The notes: generated by a model from the letters alone, not told the origin. Positions 14,064 to 26,763 are shown, counted from the first letter of the stretch. The stretch is 64,000 bases of DNA from Methanothrix soehngenii GP6 (GCF_000204415.1 NC_015416.1:1922001-1986000), one strand, 5' to 3'. Numbers and translations are program-made.

Positions 14064-15098
14064 TCAAAAGATTCAAAGCGTATTGCAACTCTGTGCTTGA
14101 ATAATCAAATCAAGAGATCTCGGGTTTTTTCCGATGAAGACCGAGAGCTCAGGAACCTAACGCGAGCCAGGTCAGGATATGTCAAGACACGAACTCAGTT
14201 CAAGAATCGGATACACAAATATCTCTCATCAAACGGCATTAAACTCAGCTCTTCTATGGACGACATATTCTGCAAATCAGGAACACATATCATAAGAGGT
14301 CTGGCTGAAGACAAGCCCGTCGAAGAGATCCTGAAAGGCATACCCTCCGGAAAGATCAGGAAAAAGCAAGACGAGATCAGATCAGCACTTGCCAATGAAC
14401 TGAGCGAGACAAATCGAATGCTGATCAGCGATTCTCTTGAAATCATGGACAATGTCGAATCCAAAATAGAGAAGACAAGCCTAAACATTCTGAAAAAGAT
14501 TCAAAATAAGAGCAAGGATCTGGCTATCGTTATGTCCATTCCTGGAATCGCATTTATCTCAGGTTCGGTCATCCTGTCAGAGATCGGAAATTACAGAGAT
14601 TTTCAGACCCCTGAACAGCTGGCGAAATGGTGTGGCCTCAATCCTGGAGAAAATGAATCTGCCGGCAAAAAGAGGAAATGCGGGATCACAAAGCGCGGTT
14701 CCAAGTATATCCGAGTTGTACTTGTCGAGGCTGCCCAGACAATAGCTAATATGAAAAATACAGGGCTGTCCAGATTCTACAAGAGGCTGAGCAAAAAGAA
14801 GGAGCACAATGTGGCAATCGTTGCCGTAGCCAGGAAACTCATCTGTCTGATTTATCATCTTCTGATCAACCAGGAGTTCTATCAAGAGGTTGATTGCAGA
14901 AAGAGGAAAAAAGGTCGAAATGAGTCCTGCCATGAACCTTCTTTGAAGGATGAGCATCTGACGGATAAGGTAGCTGCAATTGTAGATGCCTTTTATGGAA
15001 TGAGCGATAGTAGCCGGAAGAAGGCTCTCTTGCGAGCGCTTGAAGATATTTCTGTGAACAAGCCCGACCAGAAAAGGTCATCTGATGGAGGTGGATAG
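14064..15098 (+). pseudogene. Second, unrelated IS110-family recombinase, 5'-truncated
   Basis: The frame enters at SKDSKRIATLCLNNQIK, which aligns with the DSERIAIYCLNNLIT part of the 2.7 kb recombinase, so the first roughly 95 residues with the D and E of the DEDD site are missing. The rest is complete: SIPGIAFISGSVILSEIGNYRDF, PGENESAGKKRKCGITKRGSKYIR and a charged C-terminal tail. The break coincides with the right end of the IS1634-type element, and the lost part is not found to its left, so the region was deleted and not merely interrupted. Confidence 0.8.
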
Positions 15099-15616: not shown

Positions 15617-17494
15617 TCATTCCGCCAAATTTCTCATCACCTTCGCCTCAGCCTTCACAGGCACTGGATATAGCATCTCGGATCCTATCCTCTCCATGAT
15701 CTCCTTGAGCCTTGCTGCATACTCCTCTGCTCGATCCTCCGGAACCTCCAGGATGATCTCATCATGGATAGAGCCTATTATCCTCGCCTCCTCGTCCGAC
15801 AGCTTCTCATAGACCTCGGCCATCACCAGCTTGATCAGATCCGCTCCCGTCCCCTGGCAGGGGGTATTGTACATCTGGAACTTGCTGGCGGTGATCCCTG
15901 CCCCAAAGCGCGGCCAGATCCGCCTCCGCCCGAGGATCGTTCTGGTGGCTGTCAGTGGCAGGGAGAAGAATCCACGCACGCAGTTATGGAAGTGGTGCTG
16001 CATAGTGTAACTCATCTGGGATAGCTGCATCTTCTGCCACTCTCTCACTCCCGGATAGCTGCAGAAGAACCTCTCCAGGCGCTCTTCCGTCTCATCCAGG
16101 CAGATGAATTCGCCATAATCGGAGAGGATGCGCCACTGTAAGCTCTTCGCCGATCCTCCATAGATGAGAAGGAAGTTCATAGCCTTGGCCGCCTGCCTCT
16201 GCGAATCAGTCACCTCTTCGAAGGGCGTTCCGCTGATCCGGGAAGCAGTCAGGCGGTGCAGATCGATTCCCTTTATAAAGGCCTCCTGCATGGCCTCATC
16301 CCCGGAGATACGGGCCATTATGCGCAGCTCGATATTGGAGAGGTCGGCCTTGACATACCTTTTGCCTGCAGCCGGACGAAATAGCCTCCTAATTGCCGGG
16401 GCATCATCTCCCCTGCGAGGGATCTGCTGGGCGTTGGGATGGCGGGAGCTGATTCTCCCCGTAGAGGAGGGAATCTGGAAGTACTGAGGATGAACCCTGC
16501 CGTCCAGAGGATGAACCTTCTCCAGCCATTTGTTCAGAAACAGCAGATTATAGGAGAGATGCCTGTAGCGCATAAGAGCCTCAGCGAAAGAGCAGCCTGC
16601 GGCAGCAAGGCTCTTCAGGACCTCCGCTTTGGTGTTGGCAGGCCTGTAGCCCCTCTTCGCCAGAAAGGCCATAACATCCTCTTGCCGGTCGGGATTCAGA
16701 TAGCAGCAGAGCCTTTTGCCGTCAAATGAGACTGTGACAAATCCCTTCCTCTCTGCCTCATCCTGCATCCTCCAGATCTGATCGATGATCTCATCCTCCT
16801 CCTGGTCGATGAGATCTCTTGCTCCAGAGGAGTCCAGGCCAATCCCAGAGATCTCCATCTCCACCAGGGCAATAGCTGCGCGAAACTCCAGGTCGGCCAC
16901 CCTCTGCAAATCGTTTTTGGCCAATAAATCTGCCAGGATATCATGAAGCGGCAAAAGGGCGGCCGCTCCTTGGGCAGGGCACCCCTCTTCATCCAGAATG
17001 ATTCCCAGATGCCTTTCCGCCAGGGAGGCCAGGCTGTGATCGACAAGCCTCTTCGTCCAGGGATTTTTGGGATTGCCGGATGGAGTCAGATAGTAGTACC
17101 CAGACCAGCAGATCTGAGAGGCGAGCATGACGTCGAAGATGCTGCAGAAGTTCAGCTTTCGACCGGCTCTTGCCCTGATGAATGAGAGAACGAACTTCGA
17201 GTCGTGCAGAGTCTTCTTGATCCTCCCGTTCTCCAAGAGCCCAGCCAGGTCACCGATAATGCTCTCTTTCAGCTCAGGGCGGTCAGCTATATCGACGGTA
17301 TAGACTGTGCTGCTGCTGGGAGCATTGGGAAGGGCGAGAGAAATGCGCTGGATCTCATGGCAGAGAGGATCGGGGCCGGTGGCGGTCAAATTAAGGCCAA
17401 AGAATTCAGCCATTTCTATCTCTCCTAATATGGATTCCCATTCAGGCAGCGACTGAACCATTGTGATGGATTGGGGCTCAAGGCGATCGATCAT
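15617..17494 (-). CDS. polA: Family A (PolI-type) DNA polymerase with degenerate exonuclease domain
   Basis: The 625-residue protein has the Klenow-type layout without a 5'-3' exonuclease. Polymerase motifs are clear: motif A KADLSNIELRIMARISGD (catalytic Asp about residue 384), motif B RQAAKAMNFLLIYGG (Lys and Tyr kept, but Leu where NFG is usual), and motif C SIHDEIILEVPE (Asp about 578). The N-terminal 3'-5' exonuclease region reads FFGLNLTATGPDP where D-x-E-T-T-G would be expected, so the metal-binding Asp and Glu are lost and proofreading is unlikely. ATG 17494 is chosen over a TTG three codons earlier. Family A enzymes are bacterial, phage or plasmid proteins and unusual in Euryarchaeota; transfer is likely. 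It might act in repair or replicate a mobile element, but no element genes adjoin it. Confidence 0.92.
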   Translation of the reverse strand: MIDRLEPQSITMVQSLPEWESILGEIEMAEFFGLNLTATGPDPLCHEIQRISLALPNAPSSSTVYTVDIADRPELKESIIGDLAGLLENGRIKKTLHDSKFVLSFIRARAGRKLNFCSIFDVMLASQICWSGYYYLTPSGNPKNPWTKRLVDHSLASLAERHLGIILDEEGCPAQGAAALLPLHDILADLLAKNDLQRVADLEFRAAIALVEMEISGIGLDSSGARDLIDQEEDEIIDQIWRMQDEAERKGFVTVSFDGKRLCCYLNPDRQEDVMAFLAKRGYRPANTKAEVLKSLAAAGCSFAEALMRYRHLSYNLLFLNKWLEKVHPLDGRVHPQYFQIPSSTGRISSRHPNAQQIPRRGDDAPAIRRLFRPAAGKRYVKADLSNIELRIMARISGDEAMQEAFIKGIDLHRLTASRISGTPFEEVTDSQRQAAKAMNFLLIYGGSAKSLQWRILSDYGEFICLDETEERLERFFCSYPGVREWQKMQLSQMSYTMQHHFHNCVRGFFSLPLTATRTILGRRRIWPRFGAGITASKFQMYNTPCQGTGADLIKLVMAEVYEKLSDEEARIIGSIHDEIILEVPEDRAEEYAARLKEIMERIGSEMLYPVPVKAEAKVMRNLAE

Positions 17495-17761
17495 ATCAAC
17501 CAATAATTGTGAAGAATCACTATAAATTTTCTGGGGATCTCAATGAAGAGCATCTCTCCTCGATACGGTGGGCGGGATCGCAGGGCCATGCAGTGACAGG
17601 TGGGCCAGGTGGTGGATGTGACGCTTCCGACGGAGAAATAGAGCTACAGGCTTGAACTGCATGCAGGTATACAGTTCTACCGGGGCCGCCTGGAGAATAC
17701 TAACCTTTTTTTAGGCCTGTCGGGCCAGGTTAGATGCTATTGTTCTTTCTCTAGAAGATCC
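17495..17761. other. Gap between polA and the DUF4258/YgiT pair
   Basis: About 270 bp without a supportable gene. The polA promoter should lie near 17505-17540 (AAATTTATAG on the minus strand). A segment at 17650-17690 (GAACTGCATGCAGG...CAGTTCTACC) weakly recalls sequence upstream of the split tnpB and could be a transposon remnant. Confidence 0.3.
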
Positions 17762-18697: not shown

Positions 18698-18958
18698 ATG
18701 TTCGCAGAATACATTCAGGCATCCTTGGAGCGAGCAGTCTATAAAACGCTTGAAGGAGAAGACGAGCCGATCTTTGTATCGGTCCCTGAGCTTCCCGGCG
18801 CATGGGCAACGGGCAAGACGGTAGAAGAGGCCAGAAAAAGGCTTATTGGAGTTATCGAAGAGTGGATACTTCTAGGTGTCCGGCTGGGGCATCCAATCCC
18901 TCCTATCGGTGGCCATACCATCAGCACCCCGCAGGAGTCGGTGACTGTTGCCGAGTAG
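18698..18958 (+). CDS. hicB: HicB-family antitoxin
   Basis: The 86-residue protein has the HicB partial RNase H-like fold: FVSVPELPGAWATGKTVEEARKRLIGVIEEWILLGVRLGHPIPP, with the VPELPG signature and the following helix. It neutralises HicA, whose gene starts within its final codons (18948). The C-terminal tail lacks an obvious DNA-binding domain, so it is the short HicB type. ATG 18698 follows a small palindrome. Identification is good; activity untested. Confidence 0.85.
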   Translation: MFAEYIQASLERAVYKTLEGEDEPIFVSVPELPGAWATGKTVEEARKRLIGVIEEWILLGVRLGHPIPPIGGHTISTPQESVTVAE

Positions 18959-19172
18959 GCTCACTGCAGTATCTCGTCGGGATCTGATCAAACGATTGAA
19001 AAGCCTGGGATTCTCTGGGCCGTACGCCGGACCGGATCATGCATTCATGGTCAGAGGATTCGCTCGCATCAGAATTCCCAATCCTCATAAACAAGAAATA
19101 GGCATAAGCTTGCTTGTTGAGATACTTCGAGAAGGTGGGATTTCCCGCGAGGAGTGGCTATCGACTAATTGA
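18948..19172 (+). CDS. hicA: HicA-family mRNA interferase toxin
   Basis: HicA is a small dsRBD-like ribonuclease. The 74-residue product shows the family landmarks: SRRDLIKRLKSLGFSGPYAGPDHAFMVRG, where the GPDHAFM segment carries the catalytic His, and IRIPNPHKQEIGISLLVEILREGGISREEWL at the end. The start is probably TTG 18948, overlapping hicB by 11 bp, so production depends on hicB translation. The order hicB-hicA is the less common one. It looks intact. Confidence 0.85.
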   Translation: MPSRLTAVSRRDLIKRLKSLGFSGPYAGPDHAFMVRGFARIRIPNPHKQEIGISLLVEILREGGISREEWLSTN

Positions 19173-20835: not shown

Positions 20836-22017
20836 TCATCCGCAACGTCCCGGCTCAGCAGAATAAGGGATATTCTCCTTCAAGCACCAGGCCAGCTGAG
20901 AGAGCATGGGCAGGATCTCCTTCTCCTCCTTTTGCCTCTGTACCATGATCTCAGCCAGGCTGCCCTGCTCGATTCTCTTTTCGATCAGGGGAAGATACCT
21001 CTGCTCCTCCCGTGTGGCATTCCTCACCGCCAGGGCATATAGCCTCTCCAGCTCCGGCCTCATAGCGGCGACCCCGCGACGCATGCCATCCTCCAGCATA
21101 GCTAATAGATGGCTTTCACTATCCTCCAGCTCCAAGTCAGTGCGGAGGAGGGCCATGATGAAAGCACAGATCGCCATATCCGAATGCAGACACTCCTGCT
21201 CATCTATGGCCTTGATCTCCAGGCACCTCCTGGTGAAGCGCACGATCTCCCCTCTGGAGTTCACCCACTCGTGGCAAAGTATCTGAGCATGCTGCTTTTT
21301 CAATTCCCGATAGATATTGCGGTTGATCTCGACATAATCTCTGATACCCTCCAGCCTCTCGGGAATCACATTCCGGCAGATCTGGGGGATCTGGGACTGA
21401 TTTCTTCGGTAGTACACCAGCCGGCTGTCCATATAGGAATTGACTTGTCCCTCGACAAAGGGAGAGGAGGCAGTCACCGCCACCAGATAGGGCATGAGCG
21501 AGCGAATCTTGTTGAACATCCCCACCAGCTCCTGCTCATCCCTATAAGGAATATTGATCTGCAGCGCCTGGATGTTCAGCCAGCCATGCTGCTTGATGCC
21601 AAAGAGCCGGTCGTATGCCTGGTAATAGTCCTGCTCATCGTGATCCCAGTAGGTCGTCTGATCCAGGGTTAGCAGGGGATGCATTCCCAGGCCCAGGAAC
21701 TGGTACTCATTTTTCGTCGCCCGGAAAAGCTCTTGCAGTCCCGAAAAGAGATTCTCCTCCAGGCGGCCAAGGTTGCCCGGAGACGCCGGAATCAACTCCA
21801 GGACATGCTTTTGCAGCTCTTTGGACACCCGAATTCCCCCGAAGGCCACCTCATGCTCCACCCTGCCATTTATCCTCTCGATGATCCTGTCGGATATGGC
21901 CAGGGGGCGGAAGATGCTATCGTTTATGGAGTACTCGTGCTCCGTTCCTAAATGAGATTGTGCGGGTTGTGCCCGGTGCATTGCTGCCCTGGATACTCTC
22001 CCGAATTGCAATGGCAT
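20836..22017 (-). CDS. GCS2-type glutamate-cysteine ligase-like amidoligase
   Basis: The 393-residue protein belongs to the GCS2 (YbdK-like) branch of the glutamine-synthetase-fold ligases, which join an amino acid to a carboxylate using ATP. The opening LGTEHEYSIND is the family's GxExE-type metal motif. Further marks are GMHPLLTLDQTTYWDH, WLNIQALQINIPY, the TASSPFVEGQ substrate loop and an Arg-rich VNSRGEIVRFTRRCLEIK. Methanogens are not known to make glutathione, so the true product is probably another amide. It starts 6 bp after the YkgJ-like gene stops and belongs to a four-gene run with RimK-like and RLAN-like proteins. Confidence 0.85.
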   Translation of the reverse strand: MPLQFGRVSRAAMHRAQPAQSHLGTEHEYSINDSIFRPLAISDRIIERINGRVEHEVAFGGIRVSKELQKHVLELIPASPGNLGRLEENLFSGLQELFRATKNEYQFLGLGMHPLLTLDQTTYWDHDEQDYYQAYDRLFGIKQHGWLNIQALQINIPYRDEQELVGMFNKIRSLMPYLVAVTASSPFVEGQVNSYMDSRLVYYRRNQSQIPQICRNVIPERLEGIRDYVEINRNIYRELKKQHAQILCHEWVNSRGEIVRFTRRCLEIKAIDEQECLHSDMAICAFIMALLRTDLELEDSESHLLAMLEDGMRRGVAAMRPELERLYALAVRNATREEQRYLPLIEKRIEQGSLAEIMVQRQKEEKEILPMLSQLAWCLKENIPYSAEPGRCG

Positions 22018-22023
22018 CCTTTT

Positions 22024-22515
22024 TCAGTCCTCCAGCCGGATCTCCGCCACAAGATCAGTCTGGGGCTCATCGATCTGTAGAATCTGGGCCATCTCCTCCT
22101 CAGGCACGCTTCTTATCAGATCCATGATCTTCTCCACAGAGGTCTCGAAGAGGGCATCGTATGCCTTCCGGTTAGCTCTTAGGAATCGAACCATGGGACA
22201 GATGCTCTCCCTCTTGAGGAATATCTGCAGCATATCATCCTCAATATCAAAGGTGAACGGCCCGGCCACGCAGGTCTCAGGCTTGATATCATGGATGCTG
22301 CACTTCCCATCCCGGAAGAGCACACAGAATCCATCCTGCCTGAGGCGGAGCCTCTTATATCCGACAAACTCGATCGCATCCGCGCTGACGCCGTTTTCCA
22401 TAAGTATATCAATCCGCTTCTGGCTCAGGGGAGGCCTGGCCTCAAAGCAGCAGCCACCAGCCAGATGGCAATCGTCGCAGGCCCGGCTCAGGGTCTGGCA
22501 AAGGTCCTCATCCAT
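22024..22515 (-). CDS. YkgJ-family cysteine-cluster protein
   Basis: The 163-residue protein has the CxxC...CC pattern of YkgJ (zinc/iron-chelating) proteins: CDDCHLAGGCCFEARPPLS near the N-terminus and FCVLFRDGKCSIHDIKPETCVAGPF after it. Family members bind metal through these cysteines; their role is unknown, though some sit beside maturation enzymes. It lies 62 bp after the ATP-grasp gene and 6 bp before GCS2, clearly within the same operon. It could be a metal-dependent modifier or a substrate of the ligases. Confidence 0.85.
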   Translation of the reverse strand: MDEDLCQTLSRACDDCHLAGGCCFEARPPLSQKRIDILMENGVSADAIEFVGYKRLRLRQDGFCVLFRDGKCSIHDIKPETCVAGPFTFDIEDDMLQIFLKRESICPMVRFLRANRKAYDALFETSVEKIMDLIRSVPEEEMAQILQIDEPQTDLVAEIRLED

Positions 22516-22577
22516 TCAAATATCATCTCTTAGATAGTGCGAAATCATCATTTAGCCTATTCAATAAAAAAGTTGAT

Positions 22578-23606
22578 CTACCCCTCTTTAGAGTCGATGT
22601 CGCTGGAGTAGATGTCGCTCTCGCCCCATTGGCCGACCTGTGCATAGGTAAATTCAGCTTCCTGCTGATATCTGCCCATCAGACCGGCAGAAGAGATCGT
22701 CCCCATGGAAAGGTCTCGGGCATCGTCCAGAGCCTGGGCGGATACGAGATGAGAGATGATCTGTCCGAACATCTCCGGGTAATGTTCATCCTCTCCCCCT
22801 TCCAGAGAGGGATTGTCGTTCACCTCGATGACGAAGAGCTTTCCGTTGCTCTCTTTTATGTCCACTCCATACAATCCTTTACCGATAGCCCCTGCCGCTT
22901 GCTTTCCCAGATCTATTACCTCTGGCGGCACCTGATCAGCGGGCACGCTCTCCACATCGCAATAGACGATATGGCCGTTGACAGAGGCCTGGATCTTGAA
23001 GGTCTCCGAGGGTATGATATACCGGCAGGCGTAAAGCAACTGGCCATTGATCACCCCCACCCGCCAGTCGAACCGGCTCTCGATGTACTCCTGAACCACA
23101 ATCCAGTCGGATAGCTTGAAGAACCTCTTGGCCACCTTCAAGAGCTCCTCCACATCCGAGACCTTCTCCACCCGCACCGAGAAGGATGTTGACGGCTCTT
23201 TGAGAACCAGAGGGCTGCCCAGCTCATCGAAAAGCTGCCTTGCCTGCTGGTCATCTAATTCCCTCTTCTTCAGAAACCTGGTCTTAGGCATGGAGACGCC
23301 TTCTTTCTGCAGGTGCATGTACATGTTTATCTTGTCGGCGCAGATCCTGATGGATGTGGGGTCGTCTATCACCGGCACGCCGTACATCTCCGCCATCCTG
23401 GCGGCCACGTAGGTGGTGTTCATGGGATCTGTGTCGGCACGGATGAAGAGCGCATCCAGTCGGGGAATCTTTTTCATATCCACGGGAAAGATGAACTCGA
23501 CGGTATGGCCCATGCTCTCTGCCACATCCCGGCACTTCACCAGGGCCATGAGCTGAGAGGAGCTGCTCAATGTCTTTCTATTGACGAAGATTCCAAGTTT
23601 ACTCAA
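22578..23606 (-). CDS. RimK-like ATP-grasp ligase
   Basis: The 342-residue protein is an ATP-grasp carboxylate-amine ligase. After an N-terminal LGIFVNRK strand come the ATP-grasp parts: DDPTSIRICADKINMYMHLQKEGVSMPKT, the ATP-binding LGSPLVLKEPSTSFSVRVEKV, the WIVVQEYIESRFDWRVGVINGQ hinge and the Mg-binding GVDIKESNGKLFVIEVNDNPSLEGG. Such enzymes ligate amino acids to peptides, cofactors or proteins. A 45-residue C-terminal tail is not part of the fold. The RLAN-like gene overlaps its start by 8 bp, so the usual RLAN-ATP-grasp fusion seems split here. Confidence 0.9.
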   Translation of the reverse strand: MSKLGIFVNRKTLSSSSQLMALVKCRDVAESMGHTVEFIFPVDMKKIPRLDALFIRADTDPMNTTYVAARMAEMYGVPVIDDPTSIRICADKINMYMHLQKEGVSMPKTRFLKKRELDDQQARQLFDELGSPLVLKEPSTSFSVRVEKVSDVEELLKVAKRFFKLSDWIVVQEYIESRFDWRVGVINGQLLYACRYIIPSETFKIQASVNGHIVYCDVESVPADQVPPEVIDLGKQAAGAIGKGLYGVDIKESNGKLFVIEVNDNPSLEGGEDEHYPEMFGQIISHLVSAQALDDARDLSMGTISSAGLMGRYQQEAEFTYAQVGQWGESDIYSSDIDSKEG

Positions 23607-24255
23607 AGCGTTTCACCCTCTTGTCCAGAAGGTCCTGGAGCATTTCTTTTTCCTCTTTGGATAATTGAGAGTATTTCACCGGCGCCAGGGAAGAGAGATT
23701 ATAGGTGCCAGAGTTGTCCTTCACCATTACGATCTCCACCAATGGCAGCTTGAAGACCTGGTAGATCTTCTCCGCAATCTCTGCTACCTCTTCACAGCAG
23801 TTCAGGCTTCGGCCGAAAATGGAGACGCATCTGGTAACGGCAGAGGTATCAGCGATCTTCTGGTAGCAGAAAGGATACCTTCCGTGGTTGGTGATGTGCT
23901 TTACCACCTTCTTTGCCTCGTCATGATCATTCACCAGGAAGTACTCACTGGGAGTGGAGAAGTAGTTCAGGCCATAGATGATGGCCGGAAGGGGCACGAA
24001 CTGGTAGGATACAGTCCAGTCGCAGACGGAGATGCCCGCCAGCTTGGCCTTCTCCAGGCATATAGGAACGATATAGGCGTCTAAAACATCCCTGCTGCTG
24101 GGAGTGGTTATGATCCCCTCATTCTCACTCTTGACAATGGCATAGTACGGCTCAGTCTTGTAGAAGTAGCTCTCATTGACGATGTACTGAGAGTCATCTT
24201 CCACTAAGGTGTACATTATATCCTTCTTAGGAATCTGATCCCGTCGTTGGTTCAT
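23599..24255 (-). CDS. RLAN-like protein (partner domain of RimK-like ATP-grasp)
   Basis: The 218-residue protein, from ATG 24255 (MNQRRDQIPKKDIMYTLVEDD), looks like the RimK-like ATP-grasp N-terminal domain family that normally precedes an ATP-grasp module. Features include YYAIVKSENEGIITTPSSRDVLDAYIVPICLEKAKLAG, a CYQKIADTSAVTRCVSIFGRSLNCCEEVAEIAEKIYQVFKLPLVEIVMV segment and a charged end. The frame is open upstream to 24324 but the added codons are poor in family character. It overlaps the ATP-grasp gene by 8 bp. Family assignment rests on context plus general resemblance, so it is moderate. Confidence 0.55.
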   Translation of the reverse strand: MNQRRDQIPKKDIMYTLVEDDSQYIVNESYFYKTEPYYAIVKSENEGIITTPSSRDVLDAYIVPICLEKAKLAGISVCDWTVSYQFVPLPAIIYGLNYFSTPSEYFLVNDHDEAKKVVKHITNHGRYPFCYQKIADTSAVTRCVSIFGRSLNCCEEVAEIAEKIYQVFKLPLVEIVMVKDNSGTYNLSSLAPVKYSQLSKEEKEMLQDLLDKRVKRFE

Positions 24256-24630: not shown

Positions 24631-26763
24631 CTAATTTTTCTCTAATAGAGCCATCAGCTCTGCCGCATTGGTTGCTGGAAGCTGGCAGACGTGATCCGAG
24701 CAGACATAAGCCGCGGCCTTTCCCTTGACCGGGACCAGATCTCTGGTAAAGGGAGCGAGCATGACGATCTCGCTTCCTGATGCTAAAACCACCGCTTTAT
24801 TGGGCAGGAATCTAATTCTTATCGCGGCCAGCATCTCTTTCAGTCCCCCGTCCTCCAGGCTGCCGACCAGGGCTACCTCATACGTAGGTCCCAGAGCATA
24901 GTCCAGGGCACAGAGAAGCATTGTATACCCCAGGGGCTGGGCGGAGACTGCAGGAAGGGCAGAGCGAGCGAGGAGGGCGGCCTTCTCCTCTAAGCTTGTA
25001 TCTCCCGTCAAATGCAGCAGCCTGAGGAGGTTTAGGAGGGCAATGGAGTTTCCAGAAGGCAGAGCGCCATCGTAGTACTCCTTCTTTCTGACCAGCAGCT
25101 CCTCGCCATCATCCGCAGTGAAGAAAAAGCCCCCTGCCTCCCCATCCCAGAAGTGCTTATCCATGATCTCATTCAGATGGACTGCCGCCTTCAGATACTT
25201 GACATCGAATGTCGCCTCATACAGCTCGATCAATCCCCAGATGAGGAAGGCATAGTCATCCAGGTTGGCCTGAATATCTGCTCCCTGCCGGTAGCGATGC
25301 ATCAGACGCCCCTCAGGGGTCCGCATCACCTCTAAGAGAAAGTCCGCCGCCCTGCTGGCTGCCGTAGCGAGATCGGGGTCCTGCAGGGCTCCTGCCGCCC
25401 GTGCCAGGGCAGCGATCATCAGTCCATTCCAGTCGGTGAGGATCTTGTCGTCCTTGAGGGGATGGACCCTCTTCTCTCTGGCCAAATAGAGTCGGGATAT
25501 CATATCGCTGGAGCGGTGGTACAGCTCCTCCTCCGGGATCTTCAGGACACTAGCAGCATCGCTAAAGCTTGATCGTTGCCTGAGGATGTTTCTTTCCCCC
25601 TCATAGTTCCCGCTCTCATAGACATCGAATAGCCGGATCAATAGCCGGAAATCCTCTTCGCCCAGGGACTCCTTTAGCTCAACTGCGGTCCAGGTGTAGA
25701 ATTTGCCCTCCTCTCCCTCGCTATCAGCGTCCTCAGCCGAGTAGAAGCCTCCCTCGGGAGAGGTCATATCCCTCAGGATGTACTCCAGGATCTCGCGCAC
25801 CGTCTGAGCGTACTCCTCCTCACCCGTGGCCTGATAGGCCTCAGCATAGGCCATGGCCAGGAGCGCCTGGTCATAGAGCATCTTCTCGAAGTGGGGTACG
25901 AACCACTCCGGATCGGTGGAGTATCTGTGAAATCCGAATCCCACATGATCGTAGATCCCTCCCATCCTCATGCCCTGAAGGGTGGTCTTGGCCATCTCCA
26001 GGGGCAGGATGTTTTTGGTTCTCTTCCAGCAGCGCAGAAGGAACAATATGTGATGGGGGGTGGGAAACTTGGGGGCGGTGCCAAAGCCACCATTCTCAGG
26101 ATCGTAGATCGAAGAGAGGGCGCTATAGCCCCGGGAAAGAAGAGAAGAATCGAATGGCGACCCCGAGAGGGAGTCCTTATGAGCCTCCTTCTGCACGCCT
26201 GCTCCCCTGCCGCTCTGCCGTCCCTTCAGATGATCCACGATGATGTTCGCCGAGCTCATGAGGCTCTCTCGATCGTTATCCCACATCTCCTTGACCTGAG
26301 CGATCAGCTCCATCAATCCCGTCAGGCCCATATGCCCTTTTTTTGGTATGTAAGTGGCAGCGAAGAAGGGTTTTTTATCAGGAGTCATCATAACGGTCAA
26401 TGGCCATCCCCCTCTGCCGCTGACAGCTATGGCCGCGGCCATGTAGATCTGGTCTATGTCCGGCCTCTCCTCCCGATCGACCTTGATGCAGATGAAGGAC
26501 TGATTCAGGAGGCGGGCCACATTGGGATCCTCAAAGGACTCGTGGGCCATGACATGACACCAGTGGCAGGTGGAGTAGCCCACAGAGAGAAAGATCGGTT
26601 TATCCTCCCTTCTGGCTGCCTCGAATGCCTCCTCTCCCCAGGGGTACCAGTCCACTGGATTGCAGGCATGCTGCAATAGATAGGGGCTCTTCTCTTTACA
26701 AAGGCGGTTTTGCTGGCAGCTGGATCTTGACGGATCTATGCCGGAGCTGGGATCTTCTGTCAT
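24631..26763 (-). CDS. DUF255/YyaL thioredoxin-domain protein (SPATA20-like)
   Basis: The 710-residue protein starts with the DUF255 thioredoxin-like domain: [22 protein letters not shown] and [20 protein letters not shown] with a CxxC pair, then [19 protein letters not shown]. The rest is a six-hairpin, glycosidase-like alpha barrel ([48 protein letters not shown]). The family is widespread, and its reaction is unknown; a redox or sugar-related role has been suggested. Length is typical. It stands alone between two non-coding regions, with a MITE just upstream. Confidence 0.9.

Follow-up and report, generated by a model that had tools for sequence, protein, structure and literature searches.

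The closest described counterparts of the locus analyzed here are bacterial operons built around an RLAN domain and a RimK-type ATP-grasp ligase, and Iyer et al. are said to have predicted amidoligase operons of this RLAN/ATP-grasp kind in 2009. In Azospirillum and Legionella, RLAN and ATP-grasp form one fused protein, and homology indicates the same fusion in Tistrella and Pseudomonas. The partners observed in bacteria are of two kinds, a GNAT-C39 peptidase and an N-formylglutamate amidohydrolase. In Azospirillum and Tistrella a GNAT-DUF3335 (C39-like) protein is encoded immediately before the fused protein, and in Legionella adelaidensis the fusion is found together with a GCS2 protein and an N-formylglutamate amidohydrolase. 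The single proteins also have described relatives, namely the ArgX, LysX and RimK ligases, glutamate-cysteine ligase (GCL) and YbdK, and the YkgJ-type CxxCxxCC proteins.

The genome of Methanothrix soehngenii GP6 (3,026,645 bases) encodes an archaeal form of this arrangement, which we analyzed in a window of 64,000 nt (the whole stretch of DNA under study). Here, in contrast to the bacterial operons, RLAN has a gene to itself, and it is partnered by a YkgJ-like protein. The four ORFs lie on the minus strand between positions 20836 and 24255 (Table 1). An earlier note, made from the sequence alone, had described a tight four-gene run and suggested as its possible product a small peptide, a cofactor tail or a protein tag. 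The ORFs and their spacing are as it claimed: the RLAN gene stands directly before the ATP-grasp gene and overlaps it by 8 bp, and gaps of 62 bp and 6 bp separate ATP-grasp from YkgJ and YkgJ from GCS2. Each protein passes its Pfam cut-off, and all 19 relatives in the RLAN alignment match the RLAN profile.

Table 1. Genes of the M. soehngenii cluster in window coordinates, with Pfam scores and cut-offs in bits.
Product	Position	Strand	Length	Pfam family	Score (cut-off)	Remark
RLAN protein (RimK-like ATP-grasp N-terminal domain as separate gene)	23599..24255	-	218 aa	PF14401	30.9 (25)	match covers profile positions 85-149 only
RimK-family ATP-grasp ligase	22578..23606	-	342 aa	PF08443	45.9 (21)	TTG start
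YkgJ-like CxxCxxCC protein	22024..22515	-	163 aa	PF03692	34.6 (23)	
GCS2-family ligase, distinct subfamily	20836..22017	-	393 aa as ORF	PF04107	136.8 (21)	

In the subfamily alignment, relatives of GCS2 start at '(M)xGTEHE' and lack the initial ~22 residues of the ORF, so translation may begin at an internal ATG near 21981. A search against Rfam gave no RNA regulator match near the cluster. Directly upstream lies a gene for a DUF255 (thioredoxin-like) protein (24631-26763, minus strand), which recurs at 14 loci of the Methanotrichaceae family and in no other families. Elsewhere in the window, a 628-aa family A DNA polymerase (15617-17503, minus strand; PF00476, 252 bits) is encoded in what is a methanogen genome, with an IS110-type transposase ORF (14097-15098) and a HicA-like toxin ORF (18948-19172) nearby; this region looks like acquired DNA.

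The ligase of the Azospirillum fusion is 38% identical to the cluster ATP-grasp over the ligase. The Legionella GCS2, encoded adjacent to the fused RLAN-ATP-grasp, belongs to the same subfamily as the cluster GCS2 (34% identity, E 5e-48), which indicates that the pairing crosses domains. A plasmid search with the cluster RLAN as query returned no match, and one with a more canonical RLAN query found Azospirillum. The RLAN/ATP-grasp/GCS2 pairing itself is not new. Archaea have a variant of it with a split RLAN and YkgJ, and the present analysis adds this variant together with the prediction, described below, that RLAN has an ATP-grasp fold.

Distribution of the four genes across Halobacteriota

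Of 61 genomes sampled as relatives, 33 contain RLAN. In an alignment-based search that covered 345 Halobacteriota genomes, with thresholds of >190 bits for the GCS2 subfamily and >200 bits for a strong YkgJ, RLAN was found in 48 and the GCS2 subfamily in 43. Both are encoded in 42 genomes, RLAN alone in 6, GCS2 alone in 1 and neither in 296 (Fisher p = 2.5e-46 for co-occurrence, relatedness being ignored). The sole genome with GCS2 and without RLAN, G326, is 73% complete. A strong YkgJ occurs in 40 genomes, every one of which is positive for both RLAN and GCS2. The four genes lie together at 36 of the 48 loci examined, and a check of conserved neighbourhoods in archaea found them co-occurring in four Halobacteriota families, as would be expected of the cluster for which the earlier note had taken them.

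Absence of the cluster genes is likewise coordinated within families, f1 and f8 among them. RLAN, the GCS2 subfamily and a strong YkgJ are all missing from two f1 genomes (G033 and G252) and from several genomes of f8, a family that we infer to be Archaeoglobaceae-like. Where f8 genomes carry the set, the genes stand in the order RLAN-ATP-grasp-GCS2-YkgJ, or as two opposed pairs, or with GCS2 on a separate contig (G115, G141, G209 and G219). The set is thus retained in f8 while order, strand and contig are reshuffled, which argues for function rather than frozen synteny. The four genes behave as a functional unit and are not a chance neighbourhood.

Partial sets also occur. The Methanocella-like family f13, family f5 and genome G114 keep RLAN and ATP-grasp and have neither GCS2 nor YkgJ, so an independent role for the ATP-grasp is possible. 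The neighbouring genes in f13 are housekeeping genes (S19e and an SRP54-type GTPase) and DUF7411. G103 (L094:10144-11313) has RLAN, ATP-grasp and GCS2, with YkgJ neither between them nor strong elsewhere. At one further locus (G364, L084:8040-9729), RLAN and ATP-grasp are each broken into two ORFs, possibly by frameshifts or decay.

The two ligases and the RLAN protein

The cluster ATP-grasp shares its fold and catalytic residues with ArgX, RimK and LysX, which are its nearest solved structures. Seven residues (K92, K136, D180, R182, D249, E261 and N263) are invariant in an 18-row alignment, and the ATP- and metal-binding Lys/Glu/Asn residues among them (K92, K136, D249, E261 and N263) are intact. 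In contrast to these relatives, it falls into a distinct clade and below all equivalog cut-offs: in our tree the RLAN-linked ATP-grasps, bacterial fused forms included, make up a single group to the exclusion of MptN and one RimK (support 100/99, with long outgroup branches). Membership in the same RimK subfamily, with sub-threshold matches to all three models, leaves room for a known cofactor or carrier ligase, acting in the synthesis of tetrahydromethanopterin (MptN), F420 (CofF) or, dependent on LysW, lysine and arginine (LysX/ArgX). This is very improbable, and we rejected each assignment. The scores are 68.5 bits against a cut-off of 350 for MptN (NF040720), 77 against 276 for LysX and 38.5 against 300 for CofF; the genome's MptN is a separate gene at position 489133 of the genome (360.7 bits), and a search of the genome for LysW (TIGR01206) gave no match. 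Furthermore, the 345-genome survey detected neither RLAN nor the GCS2 subfamily in its Methanosarcinaceae-like genomes or in most of the phylum.

We found no mention of the RLAN domain in the literature searched. A confident AlphaFold model of the cluster protein (pLDDT 89.7, pTM 0.85) was compared with the PDB by Foldseek, and 414 structures matched at E <= 0.001. ArgX, PsnB, LysX/ArgX and RimK head the list, and the best 50 of the 414 are ATP-grasp ligases or related enzymes by title. The best match is ArgX (3vpb; E 4.6e-10, probability 1.00, TM 0.66). Since the alignment to it runs to 239 columns with a query of 218 residues, RLAN resembles an ATP-grasp module that is whole, if reduced, and more than a pre-ATP-grasp domain. 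RLAN is therefore predicted, from this single model, to adopt an ATP-grasp fold. The kinship went unseen by profile-profile comparison, where hhalign of RLAN against the neighbouring ATP-grasp alignment gave a probability of 1.2%.

The invariant columns of RLAN are Y30, Y37, E44, P52, P128, P171 and P192, and in a hand alignment by secondary structure none of them matches the catalytic Lys/Asp/Glu/Asn set. In that alignment the strand expected to bear the E-x-N motif reads 'LSSLAP', and there is no conserved Lys. We infer that RLAN is a degenerate, probably non-catalytic pseudo-ATP-grasp partner of the active ligase. The earlier note had spoken of an 'RLAN-like' gene beside two different ATP-dependent amide-bond-forming enzymes. 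That picture needs refining in respect of RLAN itself, now read structurally as a degenerate ATP-grasp. The presence of PsnB graspetide ligases among the fold neighbours of RLAN raises the question of graspetide-type RiPP maturation, in which the ATP-grasp would crosslink a short precursor peptide. We give this almost no credence, given that no conserved fifth ORF accompanies the set across families (the search covered ORFs of at least 60 aa) and that GCS2 would be unexpected in a graspetide locus.

No second GCS2 protein was detected in the genome. The cluster GCS2 retains the E-x-E, Q-x-N and Arg motifs of glutamate-cysteine ligase and YbdK, and its best PDB match in a profile search is plant glutamate-cysteine ligase (6gmo/2gwc, E 7e-7). 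It differs from these enzymes in forming its own subfamily and in reaching no equivalog cut-off: among the NCBIfam GCL/YbdK models its best score is 43.6 bits against 176.4 (TIGR02050), and the rest are lower still against cut-offs of up to 463. All 19 rows of the alignment have Glu or Asp where plant GCL has an aligned Arg, and Ile stands at another plant GCL-aligned position; these two plant positions are presumably Arg220 and Thr247, which we take to be donor-pocket residues. As far as sequence tells, GCS2 is not a plain glutamate-cysteine ligase, an identity that would have undercut the earlier note's reading of the cluster.

These features bear on a glutathione-like thiol, in which GCS2 would make a gamma-glutamyl-cysteine-like dipeptide and the ATP-grasp would finish an analogue for metal or redox handling with YkgJ. 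A GCS2 protein combined with an ATP-grasp is the glutathione layout, a Q-x-N motif and an Arg are common to the cluster GCS2 and plant GCL, and YkgJ is rich in cysteine; ArsB models, too, match a transporter found beside the genes in f8, with scores well short of the cut-off. The distance from every GCL model and the altered donor-pocket positions make such a thiol distinctly unlikely in our estimate. Both GSH and gamma-glutamylcysteine have, moreover, been reported absent in five methanogens, species unidentified (PMC7278568). In Archaeoglobus fulgidus, AF2307, annotated as a glutamate-cysteine ligase, is up more than 2-fold with CO (PMC4543118); going by its gene number only, AF2307 would be the f8 GCS2 ortholog.

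YkgJ, transporters and the candidate product

The cysteine-cluster protein that the earlier note had placed in the run shares the CxxC...CC pattern and further cysteines with its family. Cysteines 16, 22, 23, 64, 72, 82 and 106 are invariant, and C13 is present in 17 of 18 rows. The cluster subfamily differs from other YkgJ/CxxCxxCC proteins in a conserved C-terminal extension. Conservation includes the stretch 'EPET.KVAEI' close to the C terminus; the extreme C terminus is variable. The structure model is confident, and a structure search of the PDB found no similar solved structure. A role as a LysW-like carrier was rejected, since the C-terminal end is unconserved.

In two families the genes are accompanied by transporters. 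A CitMHS/DASS transporter directly follows GCS2 at three f8 loci, with an MFS transporter after it at L083, and a CitMHS transporter directly follows ATP-grasp at the f24 locus L092; the window locus has no such transporters. In the GCS2 operon of one f8 genome, the CitMHS-type transporter and the MFS-type gene flank a second RimK/LysX-like ATP-grasp (L081:14384-15298). The association with transporters, seen in two families, speaks weakly for a small molecule rather than a protein tag.

In a protein-tagging system the ligases would attach amino acids to YkgJ or some other protein, much as RimK modifies ribosomal protein S6. Several features speak for this: the nearest relatives of the ATP-grasp are the protein modifiers RimK and ArgX, the bacterial RLAN loci with a GNAT-C39 peptidase or N-formylglutamate amidohydrolase amount to ligase-hydrolase pairs, and YkgJ has the conserved 'EPET.KVAEI' segment. 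The variable extreme C terminus of YkgJ is, however, unlike a LysW- or S6-type acceptor, and the archaeal genes have no adjacent peptidase. DUF3335 was detected in 3 of 20 archaeal genomes tested, in none of them beside the cluster, and is absent in the other 17; the GNAT matches are generic, and a GNAT-C39 peptidase was rejected as a hidden archaeal partner. Together with the transporters, these observations make tagging an unlikely, if still credible, reading.

Our preferred account, which we regard as roughly an even call, is that the cluster makes a peptide-like, probably anionic small metabolite in two ATP-dependent ligations, with RLAN as a dead partner and YkgJ as an accessory. Cooperation of the two amidoligases is well supported by genome comparison, considering their co-occurrence without physical linkage and the bacterial RLAN-ATP-grasp fusions, one of them beside the same GCS2 subfamily. 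In the order of steps and with the kinds of substrate that we would propose, GCS2 would act first and, like glutamate-cysteine ligases and YbdK, link an amine and a carboxylate, but with an altered donor pocket; the ATP-grasp would then add a further amino acid or similar unit via an acyl-phosphate. RLAN, as a degenerate ATP-grasp without catalysis, would be the companion of the active enzyme, with a probable part in forming the acceptor site or the dimer. The cysteine-rich YkgJ may be a metal or Fe-S protein; it could assist the pathway through redox chemistry, metal insertion or the sensing of metals, or it could itself be the eventual user of the product. A bolder and rather improbable version is that RLAN is a pseudo-ATP-grasp subunit and that the set produces a so far undescribed metal ligand or thiol cofactor of peptide-like nature, common to Archaeoglobaceae-like archaea and several methanogen families.

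If RLAN is a decayed ATP-grasp, as predicted, archaea and bacteria alike would have a pseudoenzyme paired with an active enzyme. The set is widely co-inherited in environmentally important archaea and is small enough to be expressed and assayed as a unit. Its product, if found, could bring a new class of small molecule to archaeal biochemistry.
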